From Cupriavidus oxalaticus (GTDB lineage Bacteria > Pseudomonadota > Gammaproteobacteria > Burkholderiales > Burkholderiaceae), in the NCBI RefSeq assembly GCF_004768545.1, contig NZ_CP038636.1, positions 1,128,288-1,192,287 of the forward strand: a stretch of DNA of 64,000 nt, given 5' to 3'. Position 1 is the stretch's first letter. Each line of letters begins with the position of its first letter. Positions 9,097 through 62,014 of the stretch are shown here, in pieces. The notes beneath the pieces were generated by a model. It had not been told where the DNA came from. It ran no database searches and worked only from the letters and a program-made list of their open reading frames with translations. A program made the position numbers and the translations under genes.

Positions 9097-9211
9097 GCGA
9101 TCACCTTGTGGCCCTATGTTCGGGAAAATTCGATAAGGCAGAGTTGCCGCATGCCGGGGATACGGCACAACGGCGCACCGCCCCTTGCCGAGGCGGTGCG
9201 ACGATTGCTGG

Positions 9212-21536: not shown

Positions 21537-21566
21537 TGCCCTGAACGCATGCTGGAGCCGCTACTC

Positions 21567-22451: not shown

Positions 22452-24103
22452 TGGGCACGTCTGTAAAGGTCAGCAACCTCCGCGTTACCGCCGGGCCCGC
22501 GACGCTGGTCGACCGCGTCGACTTTGAAATTGAGCCTGGCAAAGTGCTCGCCCTGATCGGCGAGTCCGGCTCCGGCAAGACCACCACCGCGCTGGCGCTG
22601 ATGGGCTATGCACGCCACGGCTGCGAGATTTCCGGCGACATCCGGGTCGGGCACCATGACGTGCTTCGCCTGCCTGCGGGCGAACAACGCCGGTTGCGCG
22701 GGCGCGAGATCACGTACATTGCGCAAAGTGCGGCAGCGTCGTTCAACCCCTCCCGCACCATCATGGACCAGGTTGTCGAGCCAGCGTTGATCCATCGCCT
22801 CATGGATCGCGACGCTGCCGAAGAGAAAGCCGTGGCGCTGTTCCGGGAACTGGCACTGCCGGATCCGGAATCCATCGGTGAGCGTTATCCGCACCAGGTA
22901 TCCGGCGGCCAGCTGCAGCGGCTTATGGCCGCGATGGCTCTGATCACCGATCCAGATCTTGTGATCCTCGACGAGCCGACCACTGCCCTGGACGTCACCA
23001 CGCAGGTGGAAGTGCTGCGGGTATTCCGCCGCGCCGTGCAGGAACGCCGTACCACTGCGGTCTATGTCAGCCATGACCTGGCCGTGGTGGCCCAGGTCGC
23101 GGACCATATCCTGGTGCTGCGCGACGGCAAGATGCGCGAACTGGGCGAGACGGACCAGATCCTGTACCAGCCAGCGGACGACTACACCCGTTGCCTGCTC
23201 GCCGCCGCCAAGCCCGCCGAGCGCCCCGGGGCCACCGTCGATCCGGACAAGAGTCCCCTGCTGCTAGAGGTACGCGACCTGTCGGCCGGCTATGGTCCGC
23301 TCGACGCGCACGGCCAGCCCGCCTCGAAGATCCTGGAGGGCGTGGACCTGAAGCTGTACCGCGGCCAGGCAATCGGCGTCATCGGCGAGTCTGGTTCGGG
23401 CAAGACCACGCTCGCGCGTGCGATTGCAGGGCTGGTCGCCCCCTGCCGTGGCAGCATTGCGTTCAATGGCCATTCGTTGAAGCCGACCGTCGCGCAGCGC
23501 AGCCGCGAAGAGCTGCGGCGTATCCAGATCGTATTCCAGATGGCCGATACCGCGCTCAATCCGGCTCGCACGATCGAGGATATCCTCGCGCGACCGTTGC
23601 AGTTCTTCCACGGACTGCGCGGCGAAGCCCAACGCGCCCGCATTCGTCAACTGCTTGATCTGGTGCGCCTGCCGTCCGGCGTGGCCCAACGCCTGCCCGG
23701 CGGCCTGTCCGGCGGGCAAAAGCAGCGTGTGAACCTCGCGCGCGCCCTGGCGGCCGACCCGGAACTGATCCTTTGCGATGAGATTACCTCCGCACTGGAC
23801 ACCGTGGTCGGTGCGGCAATCCTTGACCTGATGGCGGAACTGCGCAAGGAACTTGGCGTCTCGTATCTGTTCATCAGCCATGACCTGCATACCGTGCGCG
23901 CCATCTGCGACGAGATCGTGGTGATGCAGGACGGCCGCAAGGTCACGCAGGTCGCACACGAGGACTACGAACGCGGACCGCATCATCCTTATTTCACGCT
24001 GCTCGCCCGCTCCGTGCCGGAGCTGCGCCGCGGCTGGATCGACGAAGTCAACCTGCATATCGAAGGCGCGCGCGCGGTACAAGGCGTACGCAGCGCCGCC
24101 TGA
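22451..24103 (+). CDS. Fused dipeptide-type ABC transporter ATPase (DppD-DppF)
   Basis: 550 residues with two complete nucleotide-binding domains in one chain. Walker A GESGSGKTT occurs near residues 37 and 313. Signature motifs are VSGGQLQRL and LSGGQKQRV. Walker B regions are LVILDEPTTALD and LILCDEITSALD, the second with Ile in place of the common Pro. In many peptide importers the two ATPases are separate genes; here they are fused. It is coupled to the permease by a one-base overlap and is followed 25 bases later by a GabD-like dehydrogenase, so import and catabolism share a transcript. Confidence 0.92.
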   Translation: MGTSVKVSNLRVTAGPATLVDRVDFEIEPGKVLALIGESGSGKTTTALALMGYARHGCEISGDIRVGHHDVLRLPAGEQRRLRGREITYIAQSAAASFNPSRTIMDQVVEPALIHRLMDRDAAEEKAVALFRELALPDPESIGERYPHQVSGGQLQRLMAAMALITDPDLVILDEPTTALDVTTQVEVLRVFRRAVQERRTTAVYVSHDLAVVAQVADHILVLRDGKMRELGETDQILYQPADDYTRCLLAAAKPAERPGATVDPDKSPLLLEVRDLSAGYGPLDAHGQPASKILEGVDLKLYRGQAIGVIGESGSGKTTLARAIAGLVAPCRGSIAFNGHSLKPTVAQRSREELRRIQIVFQMADTALNPARTIEDILARPLQFFHGLRGEAQRARIRQLLDLVRLPSGVAQRLPGGLSGGQKQRVNLARALAADPELILCDEITSALDTVVGAAILDLMAELRKELGVSYLFISHDLHTVRAICDEIVVMQDGRKVTQVAHEDYERGPHHPYFTLLARSVPELRRGWIDEVNLHIEGARAVQGVRSAA

Positions 24104-24128: not shown

Positions 24129-25607
24129 ATGCCTTTGTACCTGAACCAAGACCTGCTTCCCGGCCGCAACTTTGTCGGCGGCGAATGGTGCAGTGCGGCC
24201 GATGACCGCACCGTGTCCGTGGTGGACCCCGCCACGGAAGAAGCCTTCGCGACCGCGCCGGATAGCGGCGCTGCCGACGCGCTCCGCGCCGTCGACGCCG
24301 CCCACGCCGCATTCCCCGCATGGCGCAAGACCCCGGCCAAACAGCGCGCGCAGATCATCAAGCGCTGGAACGATCTCGTGGTCAGCCACCAGGAAGACCT
24401 TGGCCGGCTGATCTCCAGCGAGCAAGGCAAGCCGCTGGCGGAAGCCAAAGGCGAGGTTCTGTACGCGGCCAGCTATATCGAATGGTTCGCGGAAGAAGCC
24501 ACGCGAGCGGATGGCGACGTGATCGCCGCGCCGGTACAGGGCCGCCGCATGCTGGCGCTGCGCGAGCCGGTTGGCGTCGTCGCCGCGATCACGCCATGGA
24601 ATTTCCCTGCCGCAATGATCGCACGCAAGATTGCCCCCGCGCTGGCTGCCGGCTGCACTGTGGTATGCAAGCCGGCGGAAGATACCCCGCTGACCTCCCT
24701 CGCACTGGTAAAGCTTGCCCAGCAGGCCGGCGTGCCGCCGGGCGTATTGAACATCGTCACGGCCTCGCGCGAGCGGGCTGCCGAAGTCGTCGATGTGTGG
24801 CTGGATGATGCACGCGTGCGCAAGATTACCTTTACCGGCTCGACGCCCGTCGGCAAACACCTGGCACGCCGCTCCGCCGATACGCTGAAGAAGCTGTCGC
24901 TGGAGCTTGGCGGCAACGCTCCGTTCATTGTGTTCGACGATGCGGATCTGGACGCGGCCGTCGACGGGCTGATGGCCGCAAAGTTCCGCAACGGCGGACA
25001 GACCTGCGTGTCTCCGAACCGGATCTATGTCCAGGACAAGGTCCACGATGCCTTTGTCGACAAACTTGCCGCGCGCGTCGGTGCGCTGGTCGTTGGTCCC
25101 GCGACCGACCCGGCGGCGCAGATCGGCCCGATGATCAACGCGCGCGCGGTGGACAAGATCGAACGCCATGTGCAGGACGCGCTGAGCCGTGGGGCCCGCG
25201 TGGTGGTCGGCGGCCAGCGCATTCGCAACGCGCAGTGCACCGGTCCGAATTACTACGCGCCGACCGTGCTGGTGAATGCGGATGCGTCCATGCAATGCTC
25301 TTGCGAGGAAACCTTTGGCCCCGTAGCGCCCGTGACCCGCTTCCATACCGAAGCCGATGTGGTTGAGGCGGCCAATGCCACGCCGTTCGGCCTCGCCGCG
25401 TATTTTTACTCAACTGACGTTCGAAGGATCTGGCGCCTGGCTGATGCACTGGAGACGGGCATTGTTGGCGTCAACGAAGGCGCACTGGCCGCGGAAGCGG
25501 CCCCCTTCGGCGGCGTCAAGGATTCCGGATACGGGCGCGAAGGCTCGCGGCACGGCCTCGACGAGTATATGCACATCAAGTACGTGTGCCAGGGCCAGCT
25601 GGACTGA
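24129..25607 (+). CDS. NAD(P)-dependent succinate-semialdehyde dehydrogenase-like ALDH
   Basis: 492 residues. The catalytic pair is Glu259 in LELGGN and Cys293 in GGQTCVSPNR. ITPWNFPAAMIARKIAPALA and the C-terminal PFGGVKDSGYGREGSRHGLDEY are typical of the GabD branch. It would oxidise succinate semialdehyde or a related omega-oxo acid. It lies 25 bases after the ABC ATPase and upstream of a GabT-like aminotransferase, giving an import - transamination - oxidation set. A strong hairpin follows the gene, so the GabT gene may have its own transcript. A GABA substrate is plausible but unproven. Confidence 0.85.
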   Translation: MPLYLNQDLLPGRNFVGGEWCSAADDRTVSVVDPATEEAFATAPDSGAADALRAVDAAHAAFPAWRKTPAKQRAQIIKRWNDLVVSHQEDLGRLISSEQGKPLAEAKGEVLYAASYIEWFAEEATRADGDVIAAPVQGRRMLALREPVGVVAAITPWNFPAAMIARKIAPALAAGCTVVCKPAEDTPLTSLALVKLAQQAGVPPGVLNIVTASRERAAEVVDVWLDDARVRKITFTGSTPVGKHLARRSADTLKKLSLELGGNAPFIVFDDADLDAAVDGLMAAKFRNGGQTCVSPNRIYVQDKVHDAFVDKLAARVGALVVGPATDPAAQIGPMINARAVDKIERHVQDALSRGARVVVGGQRIRNAQCTGPNYYAPTVLVNADASMQCSCEETFGPVAPVTRFHTEADVVEAANATPFGLAAYFYSTDVRRIWRLADALETGIVGVNEGALAAEAAPFGGVKDSGYGREGSRHGLDEYMHIKYVCQGQLD

Positions 25608-25952: not shown

Positions 25953-27245
25953 ATGACCCAGTCCAACCAGGACCTTATCGCGCTCCGTACGCAACATGTG
26001 CCTCACGGCATCGTCACCGCCCATCCGGTTTTCGCGGACCGGGCCGAAGGCTCTTACATCTGGGATGTGGAAGGCCGCCGTTATATCGACTTTGTGGGTG
26101 GCATTGGCGTGCAGAACATCGGCCACAACCACCCCAAGATTGTCGAGGCGGTGCGCAAGCAATTGGGTCGCGTTACCCATGCGGCGTTCCAGGTGGTTGG
26201 CTATGACGGTTATGTCGAGCTGGCCGCGCGGCTGAACAAACTCGTCGGCGGCGCGGCGCACTACAAGACCCTATTCGCGACAACAGGCGCGGAGGCCGTC
26301 GAGAACGCGATCAAGATCGCACGCGCCTACCGCAATGTGCCGGGGGTCATCGCGTTCCGTGGCGGGTTCCATGGACGAACCTTGCTCGGCACCACCCTCA
26401 CAGGCATCAGCGCTCCTTACAAGCAGAACTTCGGGCCCCTCGCCGGCGAGGTTTACCACACGCCGTACCCGGATGCGTTCCGCGGCTTTTCCAGCGCAGA
26501 CGCGATTCGCGCCCTTGAAGACCTGTTCGCGACGCAGATCGCGCCCGACCGCGTTGCCGCCATTATTCTAGAGCCCGTGCAAGGCGACGGAGGCTTCATC
26601 CCTGCCGGAAGCGAGTTCCTGCGCGCGCTGCGCACACTGACGGAAAAGCATGGCATCGTGCTGATCCTGGATGAGATCCAGGCCGGCTTCGGCCGCACCG
26701 GCAAGACGTTCGGCTACCAGCATGCGGGCATCCAGCCGGACCTGGTCACCGTCGCGAAAAGCCTGGCCGGTGGCTTGCCGCTGTCCGGCGTGGTCGGGCG
26801 CGCCGAGATCATGGACGCGCCGGCAGGGGGAGGCCTGGGTGGGACCTATGGTGGCAACCCGCTCGCTTGCGCCGCCGCGCTGGCCGTGCTCGACGTATTT
26901 GAGGAGGAACAGCTTCTCTCCAAGGCACACGGACTAGGCGAGACACTGCGTGCAGGGCTCGATCAGCTCGCCCGGGAGTTCCCCGCCATCGGCACCGTGC
27001 GCGGTCTGGGCCCCATGCTGGCATTGGAGTTCGTCAAGAACGGCGACCCGTTCCAGCCTGACGCGGCCTTCGCGCAAGCGGTTATCGACCGCTGCCGCGA
27101 AGGGGGCTTGCTCGTGATCAAATGCGGCGTGCATCGAAATACCGTACGCCTGCTGGCACCGCTGAACACCAGCCTGGAAACCGCTCAGGAGGCCATGGAG
27201 ATCCTGCGCGCGGCCATTGCGCTGGCCACTAACGCTGAGCAATAA
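25953..27245 (+). CDS. gabT: GabT-like 4-aminobutyrate aminotransferase
   Basis: 430-residue class III PLP aminotransferase. The Schiff-base lysine is Lys269 in [12 protein letters not shown] (Lys268 in the E. coli enzyme). The cofactor aspartate is in [14 protein letters not shown], and [15 protein letters not shown] is the phosphate-binding segment. The length and motifs match GABA:2-oxoglutarate transaminase and related omega-amino-acid transaminases. Together with the GabD-like ALDH upstream it can convert GABA to succinate. The gene has its own leader of 345 bases behind a terminator. The substrate could be another omega-amino acid such as 5-aminovalerate. Confidence 0.87.
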
Positions 27246-29115: not shown

Positions 29116-29576
29116 TGCTAGTCAACCCGCACCAGCATTTGTTTCCGTTGGGGGCTGCGCGACCGCATCCAATTGCAAAGCTGGCACCTCCGGCAGACGA
29201 ATCTTTCAAACTACGGATAAACCCCAGCCTGTTTCAGCAGCCTGGCATCAGGTCACTTGGCATCATCCGCCGTGTGATGCGCTCATTCCAGTCCTTCCTG
29301 CGCTGCCTTGCCCTTCCCGCACGGCGAGTCGGCCGCCTCCCTGCCCCTACCGCCAATGGAAGCCGGCCCCCGCTGTCCCGATGCAGCCGGCGCCACTCCG
29401 TCTCCCGCTGTGGCGCAGCCGCCAGAACAGCCAGTCAATACGGGACAGCGTCGTTCAGGCGCTTGACGGACCCCGCGCCAAACAATCTGCTGTCTCGCCC
29501 CGCATAACGGCAGCGTTCATCGTGGCGCCCCCACAATGCGGCACCATACCGCGCGCCACCGCCGCTAAGCTTGTTC
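29116..29576. promoter_or_regulatory. Divergent control region with blocks shared with 44077-44379
   Basis: Two blocks in the gap between the binding-protein gene and the omega-aminotransferase are conserved in the gap between the ALDH at 42546 and the iron-sulfur protein gene at 44557. Block 1 is 29116-29226 versus 44077-44189, containing TGCTAG, GCAAAGC/TTCAAAGC and ACGAATCTT. Block 2 is 29480-29576 versus 44288-44379, containing AACAATCTGCTGTC and CTAAGCTTG. Order and orientation are the same. About 250 bases separate the blocks here and about 100 there. Both sites sit between divergent operons, so a common activator or repressor is likely. Confidence 0.7.
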
Positions 29577-29624
29577 CAAACCAGCCGGCAGCGCTACGCA
29601 CGAATGGATGCGAAGGAAACCGCG

Positions 29625-31028
29625 ATGACCCTGATCAATGACCTGCCCCAACTCGCTTCGCTTGACGCCGCGGACCGTGCGCATCTGATCCATCCCGTCT
29701 CGCCGTGGCGCCTCCACGAGCAGCGCGGCCCTACCGTACTGGCTTCCGGCCGCGGCGCGTGGTTGACGGATGCCAACGGCAATAAAGTCCTCGACGCGTT
29801 CGCCGGCCTTTGGTGCGTCAATATCGGCTATGGACAGGAAAGCGTGGTGCAGGCCGCCGCCGAGCAGATGCGCCGCCTGCCCTATGCGACCGGTTACTTT
29901 CACTTCAGCAGCGAGCCTGCCATCCGCCTCGCCGAGAAGCTTGTGCAGCTCACGCCCGGCTCATTGAACCACGTCTATCTCACCCTGGGTGGCTCCGAAG
30001 CGGTTGATACGGCCGTGCGCTTCATTACGCAATACTTCAATGCCACCGGGCGGCCAACGAAGAAGCATTTCATCGCGCTGGAGCGCGGCTATCACGGCTC
30101 TTCTTCCACCGGTGCCGGACTGACCGCCCTGCCTGCCTTCCACCGCGGCTTCGACCTGCCCCTGCCAACGCAGCACTACATTCCCTCTCCCGATCCCTAT
30201 CGCGCCAGCGACCCCGACGATGCCAAGGGAATCATCGACGCCTCGGTAGCAGCGTTGCGCAACAAGGTCGCGGAGCTCGGCGCGGACAATGTGGCCGCCT
30301 TCTTCTGTGAACCCGTGCAGGGCTCGGGTGGAGTGATTGTGCCGCCCAGGGGCTGGCTCAAGGCCATGCGTGACGCGGCGCGCGAGCTGGACATTCTTTT
30401 TGTCGTCGACGAAGTCATTACGGGCTTCGGGCGCACCGGCCCCATGTTCGCCTGCGAGGCTGAAGAGGTTGTCCCCGACATCATGACACTCGCAAAGGGC
30501 CTCACCGCCGGCTACGTGCCCATGGGCGCGACGATGATATCCGAGCAACTGTATGCCGGCATTGCCGACGGCGCTCCCGATGGGTCGCCAGTTGGCCATG
30601 GCGCGACATACTCCGCTCATCCGGTCAGCGCCGCGGTGGCCCTGGAGGTGCTGCGCCTGTATGAGGAAGGCGGCATCCTGGCCAATGGTCAGCGGGGCGC
30701 AGTGCCGTTTGCCGCGGGCCTGGATGCGTTGCGCAGCCATCCGCTGGTGGGTGACTCGCGCCATCGCGGACTGCTCGGCGCGTTGGAGCTCGTAAGCGAC
30801 AAGGACAGCAAGCGCGGCTTCGACCCTTCGCTGCGCCTGGCCGAGCGGATCGCGGCGACAGCCTACCGCAACGGCATTGTGTTCCGGGCCTTCGCCGACA
30901 ATATCCTGGGCTTTGCCCCCGCACTGACATATACCGAGGCCGAGTTCGAGCTGCTGTTCGCACGCGTGAAGAAGACGCTGGATGACGTGCTTGCAGCAGC
31001 TGACGTGCGCGCCGCGCTTGCAAGCTGA
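29625..31028 (+). CDS. Class III omega-aminotransferase (beta-alanine/putrescine:pyruvate type)
   Basis: 468 residues from the ATG at 29625, supported by GAAGGA eight bases upstream. The PLP lysine is about Lys291 in TLAKGLTAGYVPMGA and the cofactor Asp is in FVVDEVITGFGRTG. DAFAGLWCVNIGYG and FHFSSEPAIRLAEKL are typical of the omega-amino acid:pyruvate / polyamine:pyruvate aminotransferase group, which uses pyruvate as acceptor. It would convert a terminal amine to an aldehyde. It is divergent from the copy 1 binding protein. An ALDH partner is not adjacent, but several occur in the window. Confidence 0.88.
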   Translation: MTLINDLPQLASLDAADRAHLIHPVSPWRLHEQRGPTVLASGRGAWLTDANGNKVLDAFAGLWCVNIGYGQESVVQAAAEQMRRLPYATGYFHFSSEPAIRLAEKLVQLTPGSLNHVYLTLGGSEAVDTAVRFITQYFNATGRPTKKHFIALERGYHGSSSTGAGLTALPAFHRGFDLPLPTQHYIPSPDPYRASDPDDAKGIIDASVAALRNKVAELGADNVAAFFCEPVQGSGGVIVPPRGWLKAMRDAARELDILFVVDEVITGFGRTGPMFACEAEEVVPDIMTLAKGLTAGYVPMGATMISEQLYAGIADGAPDGSPVGHGATYSAHPVSAAVALEVLRLYEEGGILANGQRGAVPFAAGLDALRSHPLVGDSRHRGLLGALELVSDKDSKRGFDPSLRLAERIAATAYRNGIVFRAFADNILGFAPALTYTEAEFELLFARVKKTLDDVLAAADVRAALAS

Positions 31029-38634: not shown

Positions 38635-40254
38635 TCACGCATCGATCCACACGTTCTCGGCGAACATATAGCCCATCAGCCCCCCCAGCGGAATGGGCGA
38701 CAGGCCCTTGAGCTTGGTCGTATGGGCGTCGATGCTTGCCAGGAACAACGGGATGCCGATGCCAGCATCCTCGTGAACCATCGTCTGCATGTCGGCATAC
38801 ATCTGCTTGCGCTTGGCGACGTCGGTCTCACCGCGCGCCGCTACCAGCAACTGGTCGAACTTCGGGTTCTTCCAGCGCGACTCGTTCCACGGCGCATCCG
38901 ATTTGAAGAATTGCGTGAAGATGGTGTCGGCGCTGGGCCGCGGATTCACGTTGCCAAAGCCAACATGACTGTTGAGCCAGTGGTTCGACCAGTAGCCATC
39001 GGCCGGCATGCGCTTGATGTCGAGCTCCAGGCCGACACGCTGCGCGGCCTGCTGCAACACCAGCGCGGTCTCGACCGAATACAGCGCTGCGGGGGACGTC
39101 ACCACTTGTACCTTGCCGGACACGCCAGCTTTGCGCAGGTGAAACTTCGCCTTCTCGGGATCGAACGGCCGCTGCGGCAGATCCTTGAAATAGAAGCGGT
39201 TGGTGGGGTCGATGGGCTGGTCGTTGGCAACCACCGCATTACCGAGCGCGATGGTCTGCCGCATCTGCTGGCGGTCCAGCAAGTACTTCATGCCCAGGAT
39301 AAAGTCAGGGTTGGCGCCGGGGCCCACGTCCTTGCGCATGATCAGGTCGGAGTACTGGCCGGATTGCGTCGTCATGATGGCGTAGCCCGGGGTCCCCTTC
39401 ACCCTCGACACAGAACGCGGGTTGACCATCGCCACCAGGTCCATCCCGCCGGACAACAGCGCATTGAGCCGCGCGCTGTCGTCGGCAATGCCGACGAGTT
39501 CGATCTCGTCGAGGTATGGCTTGCCCGGCTTCCAGTATGCGTCGTTGCGCACCACCAGCGTGCGCACACCGGGCTTGAACTCCTTGATCTTGTAAGGCCC
39601 GGTGCCGATGCCGGCGCTGAAGTCGGTGGTGCCGTCCTTGACGATGTGGAAATGGGACGTACCCAGAATGACCGGCAGATCGGCATTGGGGCTGTTCAGC
39701 ACCACCGTGACCTCGTTCGGGCCGGTGGCCTTCACGCTCTCGATCTGTTCGGCCAGCACCTTGGCCTTGGAGGTCGTGGCCGGATCCTTGTGGCGCATGA
39801 TCGAGTACACCACGTCGGCCGGCACAAGCGCCTTGCCGTCGTGGAAGGTCACGCCCTTGCGCAGCGTAAAGACCCAGGTCTTGGCGTCCGTGGTGTTGAA
39901 CGTCTCCGCCAGCGCCGCCCGCGGCGTCAGGCTTCGGTCCAGCGAAGTCAGTCCGTTGTACACCATGTTGCAGCGCACGTAGTCGTTCTGGTTCGACTGC
40001 TTGGCCGGATCGAGGGTATCGGAGGCCGCTGCGGTGGCGACCGCCACGCGGATGCGTCCGCCGCGCTTGGGCGTCTGCGCATGCGCGCTCACCGCCGCGC
40101 CGGCCAAACCGCCGGCCAGCGTGGCCTGCATGCCCCCCGCCAGCAGCATCTTCAGGACATCGCGCCGGGTGGCGCCGTGTTTGAGCTCTTCCATCATGCG
40201 AAGGCTTTCACCGGGACCGACAAAGTTTTCCAACTGGTTACGGCTATCGCTCAT
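38635..40254 (-). CDS. ABC transporter substrate-binding protein, family 5, Tat-exported (copy 2)
   Basis: 539 residues, nearly identical to the protein at 27367-28986, including the twin-arginine signal TRRDVLKML. The DNA is also nearly identical over long runs, which implies a recent duplication or gene conversion. Visible differences include HVGFGNVNP for PVGFGNVNP and DVAKRKQMYADMQ for DNGKRSQMYADMQ. It sits in an operon with PuuB- and PuuC-like enzymes but no permease is nearby, so it probably docks to the transporter at 20580-24103. Expression with a different catabolic operon may supply the same importer under another signal. Confidence 0.92.
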   Translation of the reverse strand: MSDSRNQLENFVGPGESLRMMEELKHGATRRDVLKMLLAGGMQATLAGGLAGAAVSAHAQTPKRGGRIRVAVATAAASDTLDPAKQSNQNDYVRCNMVYNGLTSLDRSLTPRAALAETFNTTDAKTWVFTLRKGVTFHDGKALVPADVVYSIMRHKDPATTSKAKVLAEQIESVKATGPNEVTVVLNSPNADLPVILGTSHFHIVKDGTTDFSAGIGTGPYKIKEFKPGVRTLVVRNDAYWKPGKPYLDEIELVGIADDSARLNALLSGGMDLVAMVNPRSVSRVKGTPGYAIMTTQSGQYSDLIMRKDVGPGANPDFILGMKYLLDRQQMRQTIALGNAVVANDQPIDPTNRFYFKDLPQRPFDPEKAKFHLRKAGVSGKVQVVTSPAALYSVETALVLQQAAQRVGLELDIKRMPADGYWSNHWLNSHVGFGNVNPRPSADTIFTQFFKSDAPWNESRWKNPKFDQLLVAARGETDVAKRKQMYADMQTMVHEDAGIGIPLFLASIDAHTTKLKGLSPIPLGGLMGYMFAENVWIDA

Positions 40255-40327: not shown

Positions 40328-41617
40328 TTAAGCCAGCCGATCCTTGAGCTGGTAGTACAGGCCAACGGCGGGCAAGAACCATGGCGCGCCGAAGTGTCCG
40401 GGAATGGCGGGCCAATCGCGCTCGCGCCATGGGTTGGCGGCTGCGTCGCCGGCCATCACGGCGGCCATGCGCTCACCCATGTAGACGGACATTTGAGTGC
40501 CGTGGCCGCTGTAACCCATCGAATAGAAGAGACCGTCACGCTCGCCAGCATGTGGCAGGCGGTCCTGGGTCATGTCAACCAGCCCGCCCCAGCAATAGTC
40601 CAGCCGGACATCGGCCAGCTGAGGAAAGATTTCGGCGAGGCCGGCACGCAGGATTTCGCCGCTGGCGGCGTCCTGCTGCGGACTGGAGATGGCAAAGCGC
40701 GCCCTGCCGCCGAAGACCAGCCGATGGTCGGGCGTGAGACGGAAATAATGGTGGATGTTCGCCACCGTGGTGTAGGTGCGGCGCTTGGCCAGCAGTGCAG
40801 CCGCGCGCTCTGCCCCCAGCGGCTCCGTGGTCACGATAAAGCTGCCGATCGGCACGATGCGCCGGCGCAGCCAGCCAAAGCTGCCATAGCCGCCATGGCG
40901 GGTCGCGCCGGTGGCAAGCAGCACCTGCCGGGCCAGCACGGTGCCGCGCGTGGTGTGCAGGCGGTGTACCTGGCCATGCATGCGCTCAACGCGCTGTACA
41001 CACGTGCCGGTATGAATCTGTGCGCCATGGCGCTGCGCGGCCACGGCCAGGCCTTGGGCAAAGCGGCCCATATGCATCTGGCCGCTGCGTTTGTAGAGCA
41101 GGCCGCCGTGGAAGCGTTCGCTCTGGACCTCGGCACGCACGCGGTGCGCGTCGAGTATTTCCACATCGGTATCCACGCCATCGGCGATAAGCCTGTCCGC
41201 GCTGCGGCGCAGCGCATCCATCTGATGCGCACGGGTCGCGAGCTTGAGCTTGCCGTTGCGCTCGAAATCGCAAGCGATGCCCTCGTCGCGGATGATGCGC
41301 GCCACCGTGTCGACCGCATCGTCGTAGGCGTGGTACCAGTCACGGGCCCGCTGCGCGCCAACCCTGGCAGCAACGTCGGCGTAATCCACCGCAAGGCCAT
41401 TGTTGACATGTCCGCCGTTGCGCCCGGAAGCCTCCGGCGCAATGGTGGGCCCCGCCTCAAGCACCACGACGCTCGCGCCCCGCCTGGCCAGCGCCAGCGC
41501 TGCCGACAGCCCGGTGAAGCCGCCGCCGACGATGGCGACATCGACCTGGGGCGGCAGATCGTACGCATTCAGAGCCAGCGGAGGCACTGAATCTTTCCAA
41601 TAGGAATCGAGCTTCAT
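40328..41617 (-). CDS. FAD-dependent amine oxidoreductase (PuuB / gamma-glutamylputrescine oxidase-like)
   Basis: 429 residues from the internal ATG at 41617, chosen because MKLDSYWKDSVPP is the conserved N terminus of the PuuB-like group. The FAD motif is VAIVGGGFTGLSAALALARRG, followed by SGRNGGHVNNGLA, and the C-terminal flavin segment is YSMGYSGHGTQMSVYMG. PuuB oxidises gamma-glutamyl-putrescine to its aldehyde. No PuuA-type glutamylating enzyme is in the window. It lies 31 bases after HAD2 and precedes the copy 2 binding protein. A relative starts at 63419. Confidence 0.87.
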   Translation of the reverse strand: MKLDSYWKDSVPPLALNAYDLPPQVDVAIVGGGFTGLSAALALARRGASVVVLEAGPTIAPEASGRNGGHVNNGLAVDYADVAARVGAQRARDWYHAYDDAVDTVARIIRDEGIACDFERNGKLKLATRAHQMDALRRSADRLIADGVDTDVEILDAHRVRAEVQSERFHGGLLYKRSGQMHMGRFAQGLAVAAQRHGAQIHTGTCVQRVERMHGQVHRLHTTRGTVLARQVLLATGATRHGGYGSFGWLRRRIVPIGSFIVTTEPLGAERAAALLAKRRTYTTVANIHHYFRLTPDHRLVFGGRARFAISSPQQDAASGEILRAGLAEIFPQLADVRLDYCWGGLVDMTQDRLPHAGERDGLFYSMGYSGHGTQMSVYMGERMAAVMAGDAAANPWRERDWPAIPGHFGAPWFLPAVGLYYQLKDRLA

Positions 41618-41648
41618 AGTGATGTACGGGAGGGACCGCTGAGGGTTT

Positions 41649-42314
41649 TCAGAGACCAACGACGGCAGGCAGGCCACCGATGTCCTGGATCTCGGTGTAG
41701 CGGTAAGCCGCGTTGCCCGGGCCGTGGCCGCGATTCACGAACACCTTGTTCACGATGCCGAGGTCATCGGCCGACATCAGGTCGTAGCGCAGGCTCGACG
41801 ACACGTGCAGCACGTCTTCAGGATTGCAGCCCAGCGAGTCCAGCATGTACTCGAAGGCCTTCAGCCGCGGCTTGTAGGCCTGCGCCTGCTGCGCGGTGTA
41901 GACGCGGTGGAACGGCGCGCCCAGCTTCGCCACGTTCTTCTGGATCTGGTCGTCCGAGGCGTTCGACAGGATCACCAGCGGAATCTCCTTGGCCACCTTG
42001 GCCAGGCCCGCCGGTACATCCTCGTGCGGGCCCCAGGTCGGCACCGCGTCGTAGTACGACTGGCCATCGCTGTCCAGGTACTGGATCTTCCACTTCTTGC
42101 ACAGGCGGCGCACGGCGTTCTTCAGCACCACTTCATACGGCTGCCAGTCGCCCAGCACCTCGTCGAAGCGATAGGCGCTGAAGTCGGCGATGAATTGCTC
42201 CATTTGCTCAGGGGCAATCCGATCGGCGAACAGCTCGCGCGTCATCTCGCCCATGCGGAATCGCGTGAGCGTGCCATAGCAGTCAAAAGTCACGTACTTG
42301 GGTCGGAAGGTCAT
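41649..42314 (-). CDS. HAD hydrolase, type II haloacid dehalogenase-like (HAD2)
   Basis: 221 residues, strongly similar to HAD1 throughout. The nucleophile is Asp11 in TFDCYGTLT. Other blocks are YRFDEVLGDW, LSNASDDQI, YKPRLKAFEYMLDSLGC and VSSSLRYDLMSADD. As in HAD1 the VSSN motif of true L-2-haloacid dehalogenases is VSSS. It lies between a PuuC-like ALDH (upstream) and a PuuB-like oxidase (downstream) on one transcript with GhrA2 further down. The place in an amine oxidation operon makes a halo-acid substrate less obvious. It may remove another leaving group. Confidence 0.8.
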   Translation of the reverse strand: MTFRPKYVTFDCYGTLTRFRMGEMTRELFADRIAPEQMEQFIADFSAYRFDEVLGDWQPYEVVLKNAVRRLCKKWKIQYLDSDGQSYYDAVPTWGPHEDVPAGLAKVAKEIPLVILSNASDDQIQKNVAKLGAPFHRVYTAQQAQAYKPRLKAFEYMLDSLGCNPEDVLHVSSSLRYDLMSADDLGIVNKVFVNRGHGPGNAAYRYTEIQDIGGLPAVVGL

Positions 42315-53222: not shown

Positions 53223-53437
53223 CAGCGGAGCAGTGTCGTCCATGGGACCACATGCCGGCCGGCATGCAGCCGCCGCCACGCACAGCATGCCGAGCATGGC
53301 GATGAATACGGGATTTCCTTCTGCCGCCCACCCGGTATACGCAATGTGCCGTCGAAATCCAACCACTACAATTTCGGTCACTACTCGCGGCCCTGGTAGC
53401 GACCATGGCGCTGTTTCGTTACTTCACAGGACTCGTC

Positions 53438-54547
53438 ATGACGACCCAGACATACAATATCGCCGTGATCCCGGGCGATGGCATTGGCAAGGAAGTCATG
53501 CCAGAAGGCTTGCGCGTACTCCGTGCCGCCGCAAGCCGCTTTGGCATTGACCTGAACTTCACCCATGTCGAGTGGGCGAGTTGTGATTACTACGCGGCCA
53601 CCGGAAAGATGCTGCCGGATGACTGGAAAGCGCAACTGGCGGGCATGGATGCCATCTACTTCGGCGCAGTGGGCTGGCCCGATATCGTGCCGGACCATAT
53701 CTCGTTGTGGGGCTCGCTGCTGAAGTTCCGCCGCGAGTTCGACCAGTACATCAACCTGCGCCCCGCCCGCCTGTTCGAGGGCGTACCGTGCCCACTGGCC
53801 GGCAGGAAGCCGGGCGATATCGACACGATCATCGTGCGCGAGAATACCGAGGGCGAATACTCGTCGGTCGGCGGCGTGATGTATGAAGGTACCGAACGCG
53901 AAGTCGTCATGCAACAGTCCGTCTTCTCACGGCATGGGACGGACCGCGCGCTGCGCTTCGCATTCGACCTGGCCCGTCAGCGGCCGCGCAAGCGCGTTAC
54001 CGTGGCGACCAAGAGCAACGGCATTGCCATCAGCATGCCGTGGTGGGACCGCCGGGCATCCGCCATCGCGGATGAATATCCGGATGTCGGCTGGGAAAAG
54101 CAGCACATCGACATCCTGTGCGCCCGCTTCGTGTTGCAGCCGCAGCGCTTCGATGTGGTGGTGGCGTCCAACCTGTTTGGCGATATCCTGTCCGACCTGG
54201 GCCCGGCCTGCACCGGTACGCTGGGACTGGCGCCTTCGGCCAACCTGAATCCCGAGCGCACGTTCCCTTCGCTGTTCGAGCCGGTGCATGGCTCGGCCCC
54301 CGATATCTATGGCAAGAACATTGCCAACCCCATCGGCATGATCTGGTCAGGCGCCATGATGCTCGACTTCCTCGACACGGACAACGATGCCGGAAGGAAA
54401 GCGCACGATGCCATTCTTGCCGCCATCGAGCACGTCCTGATTCACGGCCCTCGCACTGCAGACCTGGGCGGTAATGCCTCCACCACCGAGATGGGTGAAG
54501 CCATTGCCAGCGTCGTGGAACGCATCGGCCTGACCGGGCAGGCATAG
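53438..54547 (+). CDS. Tartrate dehydrogenase/decarboxylase-like (isocitrate/isopropylmalate dehydrogenase family)
   Basis: 369 residues from the ATG at 53438. The beta-decarboxylating dehydrogenase family is evident: IAVIPGDGIGKEVMPEG, then VRENTEGEYSSVGG, then DILCARFVLQPQRFDVVVAS and NLFGDILSDLGPACTGTLGL. FEPVHGSAPDIYGKNIANP is the cofactor-binding end. The length and VRENTEGEYSSVGG fit tartrate dehydrogenase/D-malate dehydrogenase rather than LeuB. It oxidises tartrate or D-malate with NAD. It lies 215 bases after the TonB receptor and converges on the cyclase gene with an 18-base gap. Co-transcription with the receptor is uncertain. Confidence 0.85.
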   Translation: MTTQTYNIAVIPGDGIGKEVMPEGLRVLRAAASRFGIDLNFTHVEWASCDYYAATGKMLPDDWKAQLAGMDAIYFGAVGWPDIVPDHISLWGSLLKFRREFDQYINLRPARLFEGVPCPLAGRKPGDIDTIIVRENTEGEYSSVGGVMYEGTEREVVMQQSVFSRHGTDRALRFAFDLARQRPRKRVTVATKSNGIAISMPWWDRRASAIADEYPDVGWEKQHIDILCARFVLQPQRFDVVVASNLFGDILSDLGPACTGTLGLAPSANLNPERTFPSLFEPVHGSAPDIYGKNIANPIGMIWSGAMMLDFLDTDNDAGRKAHDAILAAIEHVLIHGPRTADLGGNASTTEMGEAIASVVERIGLTGQA

Positions 54548-58363: not shown

Positions 58364-59059
58364 ATGATATACAAACCGAAATTCATCAGCTTCGATTGTT
58401 ACGGTACTCTCATTAACTTCGAAATGGGGCCGACAGCCAAGAAGATTTTCGAAGGTCGCGTTCCGACTGATCGGATGCAGGCATTTCTTGACAGCTTCCG
58501 ATTTTACCGCCTCGATGAAGTATTAGGCGAGTGGAAACCTTTCTTTGACGTTATTGAAAATTCCATTCAACGGGCGTGCCAGGCACACGGCGTTGAATAT
58601 CGCTCATCTGATGCGGTCGCCTTGTACGACGCGGTCCCAACTTGGCAGCCCCATCCGAACGTAGTTGAGGTGCTTGAGGCAATTGCTCCGCACATCCCGC
58701 TGGTGATTCTCTCGAATTCGATGGTCGATTTGATTCCGCATAGCGTCGCGCACCTCAAGGCGCCCTTCCACGCCGTTTACACCGCCGAGGAAGCACGCGC
58801 CTACAAACCGCGGGCCCAGATGTTCGAATATATGTTTGATCAGCTCGGTTGCGGACCAGACCAGATGATGCACGTCTCGTCGAGCTTTCGTTATGACCTC
58901 ATGACGGCGTCCGATCTGGGATTCATGGCCAAAGCGTTCATCGATCGGGGCCACGAGCCCACCTCCGATAGCTATGGTGTCAATAGGTTGACCGATGTTC
59001 GCCAACTTCCCGGTTTGCTTGGACTTGAATGCCTGCTTCCCACCGCGATGGTGAAATGA
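58364..59059 (+). CDS. HAD hydrolase, type II haloacid dehalogenase-like (HAD3)
   Basis: 231 residues from the ATG at 58364 (MIYKPKFISFDCYGTLI). Asp11 is the nucleophile. YRLDEVLGEWKPF, LSNSMVDL, YKPRAQMFEYMFDQLGC and VSSSFRYDLMTA repeat the HAD1/HAD2 pattern, so the subfamily is well defined by three copies in one window. A ten-residue tail (ECLLPTAMVK) extends past the common end. The gene's first part has about 45 to 50 percent G+C, far below the neighbours. Its stop overlaps the start of the kinase gene (ATGA), so the two are translationally coupled. Confidence 0.82.
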   Translation: MIYKPKFISFDCYGTLINFEMGPTAKKIFEGRVPTDRMQAFLDSFRFYRLDEVLGEWKPFFDVIENSIQRACQAHGVEYRSSDAVALYDAVPTWQPHPNVVEVLEAIAPHIPLVILSNSMVDLIPHSVAHLKAPFHAVYTAEEARAYKPRAQMFEYMFDQLGCGPDQMMHVSSSFRYDLMTASDLGFMAKAFIDRGHEPTSDSYGVNRLTDVRQLPGLLGLECLLPTAMVK

Positions 59060-60123
59060 GACGCAGGATGCCGGAGAATCGCCCGATTACGGCAGCGGCG
59101 TTGAGCACAGCGGCGCCCAGCGTTGTTCTAGACGAAGTGGGAGCCTTGGTCAATCGTCTCTACGGTATCGATGGCAGTGTCAAATCGCTGGCCGGTGAAC
59201 GCGACCAGAATTGTTGCATAGAGACTGCGGACGGCATTCGTTACGTTGTCAAGATCAGCAATCCATCGGAGCCGGTTTCAGTGGTGGATTTCCAGATCGC
59301 TGCGCTTGACCACATCGCGCGTGTATCGCCCGACCAGCCAGTGCCCCGAGTCGTGCGGACGCTTAGCGGACGTACGCGCGACACTGTGGCATTGGCCGAC
59401 GGGCTTCAAACCACCGTGCGGATGCTTACCTATCTCGACGGCGTCCAGATTCGGGAAACTCCCCGGACCGCCGCACAGCGTCGGGCCATGGGGACAGTGC
59501 TCGCCAAGCTAAACCTCGCGTTGCGCGATTTCACGCATCCTTCCGCGATGCACAATCTGCTCTGGAATGTTTCGGCGGCGCACCGGCTGACAGCCAAGCT
59601 CGATGGCATCGTGGACGCCCCGCGTCGCGCGCTCGCTGAGTCGTTCATGTCGCGCTTCACCGACCATGTCCTGCCGCGACTCGCCTCGGTGAGGGCGCAG
59701 GTAATCCACAACGACTACCATCTCTACAACGTTCTGGTCGCACCCGACGATCATGAACGCATATTGGGGATTATCGACTTCGGCGACATGCTGTATGCGC
59801 CGCTGGTCGGCGAGGTCGCTACAGCGGCGGCCTTTCATATGACTGGCAACGCCGATCCGTTCGAGGGGCCTGCGCAGTTCGTCGGGGCCTATCACGCGAC
59901 GCTGCCGCTTACCGAAATCGAGCAGGAGATTGTCACCGATCTCATGGCGACACGCCACCTGATCACAGCGCTGATTTCGGAATGGCGCGCCGCGCGCTAC
60001 CCCGAGAACCGGGCCTACATCATGCGCCACAATCCCGCAGCATGGGAAGCGCTCTCTCAGATGGCCGCTCTTTCCCGCAATGAGGCGCGCGACCGACTAC
60101 TAACCGAAGTACGAAAAGGATAA
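59056..60123 (+). CDS. APH-fold small-molecule kinase (hydroxylysine-kinase-like)
   Basis: 355 residues from the ATG at 59056, which overlaps the HAD3 stop by ATGA. The aminoglycoside-phosphotransferase catalytic loop reads HNDYHLYN at about residues 218-225, with Asp as base. The magnesium-binding IIDFGD is at about 239-244. The ATP-lysine is in YVVKISNP. DQNCCIETADGIRYVVKISN resembles hydroxylysine kinases (AGPHD1) more than antibiotic kinases. It is followed four bases later by a class III PLP enzyme of the phospho-lyase group. In animals and some bacteria such a pair phosphorylates a hydroxy-amine and then eliminates phosphate. Confidence 0.8.
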   Translation: MRRRMPENRPITAAALSTAAPSVVLDEVGALVNRLYGIDGSVKSLAGERDQNCCIETADGIRYVVKISNPSEPVSVVDFQIAALDHIARVSPDQPVPRVVRTLSGRTRDTVALADGLQTTVRMLTYLDGVQIRETPRTAAQRRAMGTVLAKLNLALRDFTHPSAMHNLLWNVSAAHRLTAKLDGIVDAPRRALAESFMSRFTDHVLPRLASVRAQVIHNDYHLYNVLVAPDDHERILGIIDFGDMLYAPLVGEVATAAAFHMTGNADPFEGPAQFVGAYHATLPLTEIEQEIVTDLMATRHLITALISEWRAARYPENRAYIMRHNPAAWEALSQMAALSRNEARDRLLTEVRKG

Positions 60124-60127
60124 GTGA

Positions 60128-61483
60128 ATGAAAAGTACCACTGACCTCAACATGGTCAACGCCTATATCCCCGGACGCGCCAACGTGGGACCTGTCACTG
60201 CGGCGATGATCGATCGGCGCGATGCATTGCTCGGCCCGGCATATAGGCTGATGTACGAACATCCGCTTCACATCGTGCGCGGGGAAGGCGTGTGGCTGAT
60301 CGATCCGGAAGGTCGCCGTTACCTCGACGTTTACAACAACGTCGCTTCACTTGGACATTGTCACCCGGCGGTGACCGAGGCGATATGCAGGCAAGTGCAG
60401 ACCCTCGCGACCAACACCCGCTATCTGCACGACACGATCCTCGAACTGGCCGAACGCCTGCTCGCGAGCGTGCCTGAGACTAACCTTGCCCATCTCATGT
60501 TGACCTGCACGGGCAGCGAGGCAAACGACCTTGCCTATCGCATCGCAAAGGTGCGCACCGGTGGCACGGGCGTGATCGTGACCGAAACCGCCTATCATGG
60601 CTTTACCGACGCAGTGTCGCAATTCTCGCCATCACTCGGCGTGACAGTCGATCTCGGCGCCCACGTTCGCCTGGTTCCAGCACCGCGTCTCTATCATGCT
60701 GAGGGTGCTGACCTCTCAGAACGCTTCACGCGCGATGTCGAGGCGGCGATCGCCGATCTTCGGCGTCACGGCATCAAGCCTGCGGCACTGATTGTCGATT
60801 CCCTGTTCACGAGCGACGGCATCCTTCCTGAACCAGCGGGCTTTTTGAAGGGCGCGGTCGATGCGATCAAGCGGGCTGGCGGCCTTTTCATCGCCGACGA
60901 GGTCCAGCCAGGCTTCGGCCGGACCGGCGAGCATATGTGGGGTTTTCAGCGTCACGGTGTCATCCCCGACATCGTCACCCTCGGCAAGCCGATGGGCAAT
61001 GGACAACCTGTCGCGGGACTGCTGGCCACCGCTGACGCGCTGGCAGAATTCGGAAAGAACTCAAGATACTTCAACACATTCGCCGGCAATACCGTATCGT
61101 GTGCGGCTGCGCTGGCGGTCTTGGATACGATCGAGAAGGAAAGCCTGGTGCAGCATGCCGCCAGGGTAGGCAACATCCTGCGTAACGGCATCGCCGATCT
61201 CGCCAGCCGACACGAGGCCATTGGTGACGTGCGTGGCGTGGGCCTGTTCGTCGGTGTGGAACTTGTCTCGGACCGCGCATCGCGAACGCCCGATCGCGAG
61301 CTCACCACCCGGGTAGTCAATCGAATGCGCGACAAGGGCGTCTTGCTCAGCGCCTGTGCGATGGGGCACAATGTTCTCAAGATTCGACCGCCACTGGTGC
61401 TATCCTCGGAACAAGCCGGCATCGTCATCGAAACGCTCGACGAAGCGCTAACACAGTGCAATCGGCAAAACGGAGGTAACTAG
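60128..61483 (+). CDS. Class III PLP enzyme, probable amine-phosphate phospho-lyase
   Basis: 451 residues. Lys287 in TLGKPMGNGQPVAG binds PLP, and the aspartate pair is in IADEVQPGFGRTG. The GKPMGNG block and length match ethanolamine-phosphate and 5-phosphohydroxylysine phospho-lyases, which eliminate phosphate and ammonia to give an aldehyde, rather than ordinary transaminases (AKGLTAG or AKSLAGG in the two other class III enzymes here). It lies four bases after the kinase with AAAGGA before the ATG. Phospho-lyase action is inferred from the motif and the kinase neighbour. An ordinary aminotransferase is the alternative. Confidence 0.78.
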   Translation: MKSTTDLNMVNAYIPGRANVGPVTAAMIDRRDALLGPAYRLMYEHPLHIVRGEGVWLIDPEGRRYLDVYNNVASLGHCHPAVTEAICRQVQTLATNTRYLHDTILELAERLLASVPETNLAHLMLTCTGSEANDLAYRIAKVRTGGTGVIVTETAYHGFTDAVSQFSPSLGVTVDLGAHVRLVPAPRLYHAEGADLSERFTRDVEAAIADLRRHGIKPAALIVDSLFTSDGILPEPAGFLKGAVDAIKRAGGLFIADEVQPGFGRTGEHMWGFQRHGVIPDIVTLGKPMGNGQPVAGLLATADALAEFGKNSRYFNTFAGNTVSCAAALAVLDTIEKESLVQHAARVGNILRNGIADLASRHEAIGDVRGVGLFVGVELVSDRASRTPDRELTTRVVNRMRDKGVLLSACAMGHNVLKIRPPLVLSSEQAGIVIETLDEALTQCNRQNGGN

Positions 61484-61510: not shown

Positions 61511-62014
61511 ATGCGAGCTTCAGCTTCCCTCGACCAGTTTGACATCAAGATTCTTGTGCATCTTCAGCGCGAGGGACGCTGTTCGAATGTCGACCTGGCC
61601 GCAGCCATTGGCCTCAGTGAAAGCCCATGTCTTCTCCGCACGAAACGGCTTCAGGAGACCGGCGTTATCCGTGGCTACCGTGCGGAGGTCGCACTGGAGA
61701 AGCTGGGCAGCCACGTAATCGTGTTTTCCGAGGTCACTATCAGCAGCCATCGGCCCCAAGACTTCCGCAAATTTGAAGCGGGGGTTGAGAAGTACCACGA
61801 AATCGTCGAATGCTACAACGTCAGTGGCGGTTACGATTACCTTCTGAAAGTCATCGCACCTAATATCGCTTATTTTCAGGCGCTCATGGAGCAGTTGTTG
61901 AAAGACGATATCGGGATCGAAAAATTTTCCAGCCGGATCGTATTGCGCAAGCCGCTTGAGCAACGGGGGTATCCGCTGCGAATTATTGCAACCGGAAGGC
62001 CGGACTGGGATTAA
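61511..62014 (+). CDS. Lrp/AsnC-family transcriptional regulator, second copy
   Basis: 167 residues. The HTH is NVDLAAAIGLSESPCLLRTKR. The RAM domain contains EVTISSHRPQDFRKFE and CYNVSGGYDYLLK, nearly the same patterns as the Lrp protein at 18464-18958. It follows the phospho-lyase gene by 27 bases on the same strand and is probably the local regulator of the HAD3 - kinase - lyase operon. Such proteins usually sense the amino acid being degraded. Confidence 0.9.
   Translation: MRASASLDQFDIKILVHLQREGRCSNVDLAAAIGLSESPCLLRTKRLQETGVIRGYRAEVALEKLGSHVIVFSEVTISSHRPQDFRKFEAGVEKYHEIVECYNVSGGYDYLLKVIAPNIAYFQALMEQLLKDDIGIEKFSSRIVLRKPLEQRGYPLRIIATGRPDWD

Follow-up and report, generated by a model that had tools for sequence, protein, structure and literature searches.

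The window that we analysed, a stretch of 64,000 nucleotides forming the end of a 1.19-Mb contig of Cupriavidus oxalaticus (NZ_CP038636.1, positions 1,128,288 to 1,192,287), carries an operon of four genes which encode a type II hydrolase of the haloacid dehalogenase (HAD) superfamily, hereafter HAD-c, a kinase of the aminoglycoside phosphotransferase (APH) fold, a predicted phospho-lyase dependent on pyridoxal phosphate (PLP) and an Lrp/AsnC regulator. This operon is real and conserved, its chemistry is partly known, the combination of its three enzymes is likely to be new, and it offers an entry into an open question. Homology and comparison between genomes established which classes the enzymes belong to, that the gene order is conserved and that the genes co-occur. 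As to its function, the balance tips slightly in favour of a catabolic branch which takes up a hydroxylated amine made by the cell's own HAD, for which we can put forward a candidate substrate. An initial annotation of the same DNA had already proposed a HAD-kinase-PLP operon at this place, with a kinase gene overlapping the HAD gene by four bases; we found all its genes again, and the overlap is the ATGA at 59056-59059 when the kinase starts at the ATG at 59056 (the listing of open reading frames (ORFs) also offers an upstream ATG at 59029). Four bases separate the kinase stop from the PLP start and 27 the PLP stop from the Lrp start. The label "HAD3" given to HAD-c was apt as well, since the window holds three HAD paralogs, HAD-a, HAD-b and HAD-c.

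Judged by its sequence, the PLP enzyme is of the phospho-lyase type: characterised phospho-lyases resemble it more than the remaining chains of the class III fold do. In the PDB, the ethanolamine-phosphate phospho-lyases 5g4i (which we take to be A1RDF1 of Arthrobacter) and 6tor (human) come out with E-values of 3.5e-112 and 2.8e-102 against 2.5e-63 for the next chain, which leaves them 161 and 128 bits ahead; the enzyme is identical to 5g4i at 184/408 positions (45.1%, computed without the last nine aligned positions). The GKPMGNG block which the initial annotation had pointed out is indeed present and is common to both solved phospho-lyases in our alignments; in an alignment of 20 sequences, neither this block nor NNV, TRYL, FNTF and NVLKIRPPL is found in the two transaminases of the window, and a Lys stands where the 4-aminobutyrate (GABA)-type transaminase of the window has an Arg. 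The enzyme remains below the cut-offs of the 4-aminobutyrate transaminase model TIGR00700 (206.6 bits, cut-off 506.65) and of the PbfA (hydroxy-aminoethylphosphonate ammonia-lyase) model NF049939 (212.9 bits, cut-off 525). With the ethanolamine-phosphate enzymes and with 5-phosphohydroxylysine phospho-lyase, another known phospho-lyase, it shares the class III fold, several sequence blocks including GKPMGNG, and presumably a substrate with a terminal amine and the elimination of phosphate and ammonia; it differs from them by its moderate identity to 5g4i, by its operon with a HAD and an Lrp gene and by a substrate which is probably an acid.

The kinase is predicted to be an APH-fold small-molecule kinase: the ORF from 59029 scores 90.5 bits with PF01636, above the cut-off, and the residues H218, D220, N225 and D241-F-G-D244 (the motifs HxDxxxxN and DFGD) are unchanged in 32/32 aligned rows. 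Its best PDB match by sequence is 6ef6, whose title names an aminopropanol kinase (E-value 4.9e-4 for the single sequence, 3e-14 as a profile), while by fold the highest Z is that of the homoserine kinase 2ppq; the public names of its homologues, which are those of their sources, include "hydroxylysine kinase". The best NCBIfam models for both the kinase (285.6 bits) and the PLP enzyme (471.7 bits) are the PRK06148 fusions, whose domain order we take to be kinase-peptidase-PLP; here the two parts lie in separate genes with a HAD in place of the middle domain, and the cut-off of 1128 is not reached. Taken together, the homologies of the two enzymes support the proposal, made in the initial annotation, that a hydroxy-amine is converted to an aldehyde: very probably, a vicinal amino alcohol would be phosphorylated and phosphate and ammonia would then be eliminated. 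This chemistry itself is known. The same phosphorylate-then-eliminate logic is found in the routes of aminopropanol kinase (6ef6) and of hydroxylysine kinase, in the Erwinia/Pseudomonas amino-alcohol pathway of the 1970s and in that of a mycobacterial microcompartment, which to our knowledge run in other settings and involve no HAD. A title cited in the accessible part of PMC8154272 names human hydroxylysine kinase and ammoniophospholyases, which belong to such a route as well.

All three HADs of the window pass the HAD type II model TIGR01428 (cut-off 125.4), HAD-c with 159.7 bits. In alignment, motif I reads D-C-Y-G-T in 24/26 rows and D-C-H-G-T in 2/26 (two of the 28 aligned rows do not cover it), D11 and T15 being invariant in the 26 covering rows; R49, N118, K148, S172-S174 and D178 are invariant in 28/28, as is the block S-S-S-x-R-Y/H-D. 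By sequence, the nearest solved relatives of HAD-c are 8hp5 and the azetidine-2-carboxylate hydrolase 3smv. For HAD-b these two stand out (4.2e-22 and 7.6e-22), the next different protein being 40 bits worse (1.8e-9). The catalytic Asp12 and Lys152 of 8hp5, named in the titles of 8hp6 and 8hp7, are conserved; the title of 8hp7 describes an enzyme trapped with (2R)-4-amino-2-hydroxybutanoic acid and that of 8ywo an azetidine-2-carboxylate hydrolase soaked in its substrate. The L-azetidine-2-carboxylate hydrolases (3smv/8ywo; Aspergillus AzhA, in the accessible part of PMC8016842) and 8hp5-8hp7 are the nearest solved HADs, with the same catalytic Asp/Lys positions, and 4-amino-2-hydroxybutyrate is the product class that we propose here; the differences are an identity of 30-31% and the presence of three paralogs with three partner sets.

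We collected 445 relatives of the PLP gene from one genome per species and kept the best 80 for counts at the locus. HAD, kinase and Lrp genes were counted by tblastn, HAD-c when upstream at 50% identity or more and the kinase when within 2.5 kb on the same strand, and neighbouring ORFs came from a crude ORF caller. Every locus (80/80) has the kinase close to the PLP gene; HAD-c is upstream in 73/80, Lrp is downstream in 69/80 and all four genes are together in 65/80. Since the genes recur in this way across three proteobacterial classes (alpha, beta and gamma), their order is not due to chance. The PLP genes of Cupriavidus sp. LEh25, of another genome of that genus (G034) and of a C. necator megaplasmid are 98-99% identical to the one studied here; the module HAD of a Methylobacterium genome (G465) is just 54% identical; and on an Aureimonas plasmid (L106) the PLP gene is 65% identical, a phosphotransferase gene lies on the other strand and no HAD was found in the stretch examined. 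A HAD also stands beside diverged kinase-PLP pairs in Pantoea (kinase-PLP-HAD), Sinorhizobium (HAD-kinase-PLP) and Novosphingobium (Lrp-HAD-kinase-PLP), which means that the HAD, kinase and PLP genes have been joined in more than one order.

Beyond what the initial annotation had described, the module goes with a larger island which fills most of the window. Among the 80 genomes, a further HAD paralog at E <= 1e-50 exists in 72 of the 73 which have HAD-c. We picked 14 regions around second HADs, mainly where these are on another contig than the module, and excluded one (L174) which is the HAD-c locus itself; in the 13 others, which include L178 from a genome without HAD-c, a binding protein is nearby in 13/13, a DAO-family oxidase in 12/13, and the contig is not that of the module in 11/13. 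HAD-a/b occurs in 76/77 genomes with the near PLP type (at least 65% identity) against any such HAD in 1/36 of those whose sole PLP relative is a diverged one (43-60% identity); Fisher's test gives 7e-27 when relatedness is ignored, a value which is overstated because the genomes are related. The 36 genomes consist of 11 (eight of the same genus and three of the 80) with 0/11 and of 25 from a class draw of 289 with 1/25 (G577), and 33 of them (the eight and the 25) are defined by the PLP relative alone. Within the class draw, the HAD is no more frequent with a diverged PLP relative (1/25) than without (6/263, P 0.47). The background frequency is low, with 1/368 among the other genomes of the window's class and 7/288 among the others in the class of G462.

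The three HADs have different partners: HAD-a has a dihydroxy-acid dehydratase and a GhrA-type reductase, HAD-b a DAO oxidase, and HAD-c the kinase and the phospho-lyase. The three sub-operons are also found together in two Pseudomonas loci (L027, L032). At least three recurrent gene families lie within 10 kb in 43/80 loci, and most of this recurrent set is present in the window itself. The counts, which are raw numbers from the module loci alone, are, among others, 34 for a FAD oxidase of about 441 residues, 32 for an aldehyde dehydrogenase, 27 for a DAO-type oxidase, 20 each for ornithine-cyclodeaminase-like and threonine-dehydratase-like genes, 18 each for a GhrA-type reductase, a cupin and a Nik/Dpp-type binding protein, and 16 each for the PRK05965 aminotransferase and GNAT; clustering at 40% identity and 70% cover misses distant island genes. 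On plasmids of the Hyphomicrobiales Mesorhizobium, Chelatococcus and Neorhizobium, HAD-b occurs with a DAO oxidase, a class III aminotransferase, a semialdehyde dehydrogenase and a tartrate dehydrogenase, and neither kinase nor PLP gene was found in the stretches examined; the Chelatococcus plasmid has a diverged kinase-PLP pair elsewhere.

HAD-c is moderately likely to be the first enzyme of a kinase-lyase route; the order of the steps, their direction and the strained-ring substrate are what we infer. The Asp nucleophile of HAD-c would displace a leaving group, likeliest the nitrogen in the ring of a strained amino acid, from the alpha carbon of the acid; HADs of this subgroup carry out such a displacement and give a 2-hydroxy acid (in the R form, following the title of 8hp7). 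The product of HAD-c would be an acid whose terminal amine is free and has a hydroxyl beside it. The kinase would phosphorylate this hydroxyl with ATP, and the PLP enzyme would bind the amine in a Schiff base, phosphate leaving first and ammonia second, which would yield an aldehyde able to feed the semialdehyde dehydrogenase and the D-malate-type dehydrogenase of the island; the Lrp protein would regulate the operon. HAD-a, with its sugar-acid dehydratase and 2-hydroxyacid dehydrogenase, and HAD-b, with its FAD oxidase and ATP-binding cassette (ABC) transporter, may be sister HADs acting on related substrates in the larger island which the branch would serve. We propose that the HADs open azetidine-type rings, with 4-amino-2-hydroxy acids as products, and that the operon converts a hydroxylated one of these to malate semialdehyde. 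A HAD yielding an (R)-2-hydroxy acid fits the island, because a GABA-type transaminase and succinate-semialdehyde-type and tartrate dehydrogenases are all above their cut-offs, and D-malate activity is known in the tartrate dehydrogenase family. The branch of HAD-b might then run from (R)-4-amino-2-hydroxybutyrate through malate semialdehyde and D-malate to pyruvate. The partners of HAD-c call for a hydroxyl adjacent to the amine, and the dehydratase beside HAD-a calls for a 2,3-dihydroxy acid; from the gene sets we therefore propose 4-amino-2,3-dihydroxybutyrate, which answers both demands and would be the expected opening product of 3-hydroxyazetidine-2-carboxylate. Our best single guess is that 3-hydroxyazetidine-2-carboxylate would give 4-amino-2,3-dihydroxybutyrate, then its 3-phosphate, then malate semialdehyde, ammonia and phosphate.

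Several observations weigh against this reading. Opening an azetidine at C2 yields a 4-amino-2-hydroxy acid, in which the hydroxyl and the amine are not neighbours, so that the phospho-lyase step needs an extra 3-hydroxyl and the guess becomes less simple. HAD-c is only 31% identical to 3smv (59/189); when folds are compared, a Zobellia L-2-haloacid dehalogenase is level with the leading rows. Three loci (L030, L051, L075) lack HAD-c while retaining kinase and PLP, and in L076 only a 43% HAD match is left; all four keep kinase, PLP and Lrp, and each of these genomes has one HAD of the a/b type. Conversely, one genome (G501, locus L095) has HAD-c and no second HAD. Kinase-PLP pairs free of any HAD exist beside other ABC transporters, one of them annotated lysine/arginine/ornithine, which means that a HAD is not required by the pair as such. 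The split between near and diverged types is not clean either, since at least three plasmid records (NZ_CP012399.1, NZ_CP018096.1, NZ_CP054028.1) hold a diverged PLP relative and a HAD in separate places and three loci have a HAD beside a diverged pair. The identities of HAD, kinase and PLP genes correlate with r 0.905-0.918 over 70 loci, a figure for the linked genes alone, and the tartrate dehydrogenase family is common (47/60 relatives, own genome included, against 39/40 module genomes). Finally, close relatives in Halomonas, Billgrantia, Denitromonas and others, none of them known to us as plant bacteria, speak against a purely plant-linked role.

Among the other explanations, an ordinary amino-alcohol or hydroxylysine route, in which ethanolamine, 1-amino-2-propanol, hydroxylysine or 2-hydroxyputrescine would be taken up as such and HAD-c would be an accessory, either for clean-up or as an unrelated dehalogenase, seems unlikely to us. 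In its favour, the nearest solved proteins are an ethanolamine-phosphate phospho-lyase and an aminopropanol kinase, public names agree with it, and HAD-free diverged pairs exist, one of them beside the lysine/arginine/ornithine transporter. It is at odds with the frequency of the HAD in the operons, with the second HAD of nearly all HAD-c genomes and with the near absence of such a HAD where the PLP relative is diverged. Another substrate, 2,4-diamino-3-hydroxybutyrate, which might come from hydroxyectoine or from the central unit of mugineic acid, could be turned by kinase and lyase into aspartate semialdehyde, then aspartate and, by the aspartase of the island, fumarate. The genes resembling EutB/EutC or BhcB/BhcD which 20/80 loci have within 10 kb, the aspartase-family gene of the window, which would fit an aspartate intermediate, and the Chelatococcus kinase-PLP pair, which stands beside ectoine genes, point in this direction; we nevertheless find it improbable, as no role is left for HAD-c and the Chelatococcus pair, itself of the diverged type, lacks a neighbouring HAD. 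We consider it about equally improbable that the reaction of HAD-c at C2 of a 3-amino acid is the loss of a halide or the opening of an aziridine and gives isoserine, from which kinase and lyase would form malonate semialdehyde. We know of no abundant natural substrate for this, and the dihydroxy-acid dehydratase, the tartrate-type dehydrogenase and, in some loci, a PF07005/PF17042 protein, which we take to be of the four-carbon acid kinase type, point to C4 acids; on the other side, it agrees with HAD type II chemistry, requires no extra hydroxyl and recalls HADs which act on alpha-fluoro-beta-alanine (accessible part of PMC12184663), isoserine as the product of hydrolysis being our own suggestion.

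Two further possibilities bear on a single enzyme each. That the PLP enzyme is a transaminase, as its class III fold, its automatic names and the name "4-aminobutyrate aminotransferase" in the accessible part of PMC13275390 would have it, is very improbable in view of its shortfall under TIGR00700, the lead of the phospho-lyases in the PDB and its signature residues. The initial annotation had thought of the HAD as a phosphatase, which might recycle the phosphorylated intermediate. Its position in the operon and its superfamily are compatible with this, but HAD phosphatases have a second Asp in motif I (D-x-D), which is absent from the D-C-Y/H-G-T of all covering rows; this, the S-S-S-x-R-Y/H-D block, the passing of the type II cut-off and the nearest solved proteins speak against that idea, to which we give hardly any credit.

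Azetidine-2-carboxylate is the ring of nicotianamine and of the mugineic acids. Chelators of the mugineic type are secreted by grasses for iron uptake and destroyed by soil microbes, and in barley and rye there are hydroxymugineic acids whose ring is 3-hydroxylated. We regard nicotianamine and the mugineic acids as candidates for the natural sources. One can go further and read the whole island (about 6-64 kb of the window) as a pathway for these phytosiderophores, a joint reading which we regard as doubtful. Import would go through the TonB receptor and a Nik-type ABC transporter, and FAD oxidases would cut the amine bonds. HAD-b would convert the azetidine ring to (R)-4-amino-2-hydroxybutyrate, to be followed by the transaminase, the semialdehyde dehydrogenase and the D-malate dehydrogenase, while HAD-a with its dehydratase and HAD-c with kinase and lyase would offer two ways for the 3-hydroxylated ring, that of HAD-c being a new route via 4-amino-2,3-dihydroxybutyrate 3-phosphate. 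Homologs of the TonB receptor are found in 7/80 module loci. In 2021, phytosiderophores were said to be degraded by soil bacteria and the degradation genes were called unknown (PMC7786132, in its accessible part); P. fluorescens SBW25 is reported there as a phytosiderophore consumer. The island, with three HADs and three different partner sets, would be a concrete and testable gene set for chelator breakdown; should the substrate be a different one, the operon would still link hydrolysis by a HAD with a kinase and a phospho-lyase.

The initial annotation knew of no described pathway with this set of enzymes, which has to be qualified. Besides the known kinase and phospho-lyase routes, the operon itself was noted in 2026 in Herbaspirillum rubrisubalbicans M1 as Hrubri_0245-0242, with the names 2-haloacid dehalogenase, hydroxylysine kinase, 4-aminobutyrate aminotransferase and Lrp (PMC13275390); the four gene types and their order are the same as here, we saw no difference, and the fatty-acid genes beside it match those which flank the Herbaspirillum loci of our survey. 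In the accessible parts of that paper, the Lrp gene is upregulated with sorghum, which is what drew attention to the operon, and induced under nitrogen limitation, its mutant is a weaker competitor on sorghum roots, and the subject is the regulator (polyhydroxybutyrate, motility, colonisation), with no enzymatic function for the operon enzymes. The statement holds to this extent: in the open-licence literature we found no described enzymatic function for the combination of HAD, kinase and phospho-lyase.

As for the neighbours, the Lrp gene does adjoin the PLP gene, as had been announced. The "PuuB-like oxidase" is in fact a partial DAO-family FAD protein (193 residues in the window, no named model above its cut-off) which lies outside the operon, because an oppositely oriented LysR gene stands between. 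The features of the window are collected in the following table.

Table. Genes of the operon and of the surrounding island (positions in the window; bits are model scores)
Feature	Position	Strand	Remarks
GhrA-type 2-hydroxyacid dehydrogenase, adjoins HAD-a	6403..7329	-	NF012013 248.7 bits, below cut-off 403
Dihydroxy-acid/sugar-acid dehydratase family protein, adjoins HAD-a	7339..9297	-	NF004784 765.2 bits, cut-off 539; PF00920/PF24877; true start probably below 9297
HAD-a, paralog	9212..9880	-	TIGR01428 153.7 bits; 70% identity to HAD-b, 51% to HAD-c
Dpp/Nik-type ABC transporter, two permeases and ATPase	20496..24103	+	homologs of annotated neighbour clusters 19, 21, 18
Succinate-semialdehyde-type dehydrogenase, proposed malate-semialdehyde dehydrogenase	24129..25607	+	TIGR01780 652.7 bits, cut-off 646.35
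4-Aminobutyrate-type transaminase, proposed 4-amino-2-hydroxybutyrate transaminase	25953..27245	+	TIGR00700 511.1 bits, cut-off 506.65
Second Nik/Dpp-type binding protein	27367-28986	-	92% identical (496/539) to paralog 38635..40254, about 10 kb apart
PRK05965 class III aminotransferase	29571..31028	+	NF004625 844 bits, cut-off 729
Nik/Dpp-type solute-binding protein	38635..40254	-	NF045468 147.5 bits, cut-off 600; recurrent beside HAD-b
DAO-family FAD oxidoreductase paired with HAD-b	40328..41677	-	pipecolate oxidase AmaA 174 bits (cut-off 600), Phn_aa_oxid 147 (cut-off 632.8); recurrent beside HAD-b
HAD-b, paralog paired with FAD oxidase	41649..42314	-	TIGR01428 168.6 bits; best PDB 8hp5, 3smv
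Aspartate ammonia-lyase family gene, inside island	47600-49021	-	PRK12273 696.7 bits, cut-off 510
TonB-dependent siderophore receptor	51099-53222	+	among solved proteins, closest to the enantio-pyochelin receptor 3qlb
Tartrate dehydrogenase family protein, proposed D-malate dehydrogenase	53405..54547	+	TIGR02089 528.1 bits, cut-off 470.4
HAD-c, HAD type II family hydrolase, putative first enzyme of the module	58364..59059	+	ATG 58364, stop 59057-59059
APH-fold small-molecule kinase, proposed amino-alcohol kinase	59056..60123	+	ATG 59056, stop 60121-60123
PLP-dependent phospho-lyase (predicted), class III aminotransferase fold	60128..61483	+	ATG 60128
Lrp/AsnC regulator, fourth gene of the module	61511..62014	+	PF01037, PF13412
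LysR gene	62153-63073		orientation opposite to operon
DAO-family FAD oxidoreductase, 5' part, cut by contig end	63419..64000	+	PF01266

Some minor observations concern other loci and the space before the operon. Within 8 kb upstream of the module, L023 and L024 have, in the same direction, genes for a cupin, a PF07005/PF17042 kinase-type protein, a class II aldolase and an Asp/Glu-racemase-like protein, to which L023 alone adds GhrA-type, ornithine-cyclodeaminase-like and threonine-dehydratase-like genes; this run suggests C4 hydroxy-acid or hydroxyaspartate chemistry. The HAD-free kinase-PLP pairs of a Klebsiella plasmid (L109) and a Rahnella plasmid (L108) have as neighbours either a transporter annotated lysine/arginine/ornithine or an ABC transporter together with a 4-aminobutyrate transaminase, and perhaps belong to hydroxylysine or hydroxy-polyamine routes. 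In the window itself, in the space that separates the operon from the gene for the tartrate dehydrogenase, the minus strand encodes at 54565-58005 a protein of 1146 residues which combines a zinc ribbon, a guanylate/adenylate cyclase, an AAA domain and TPR repeats, and which resembles the TOMM kinase/cyclase fusion model with 430.5 bits, below the cut-off of 705.75.

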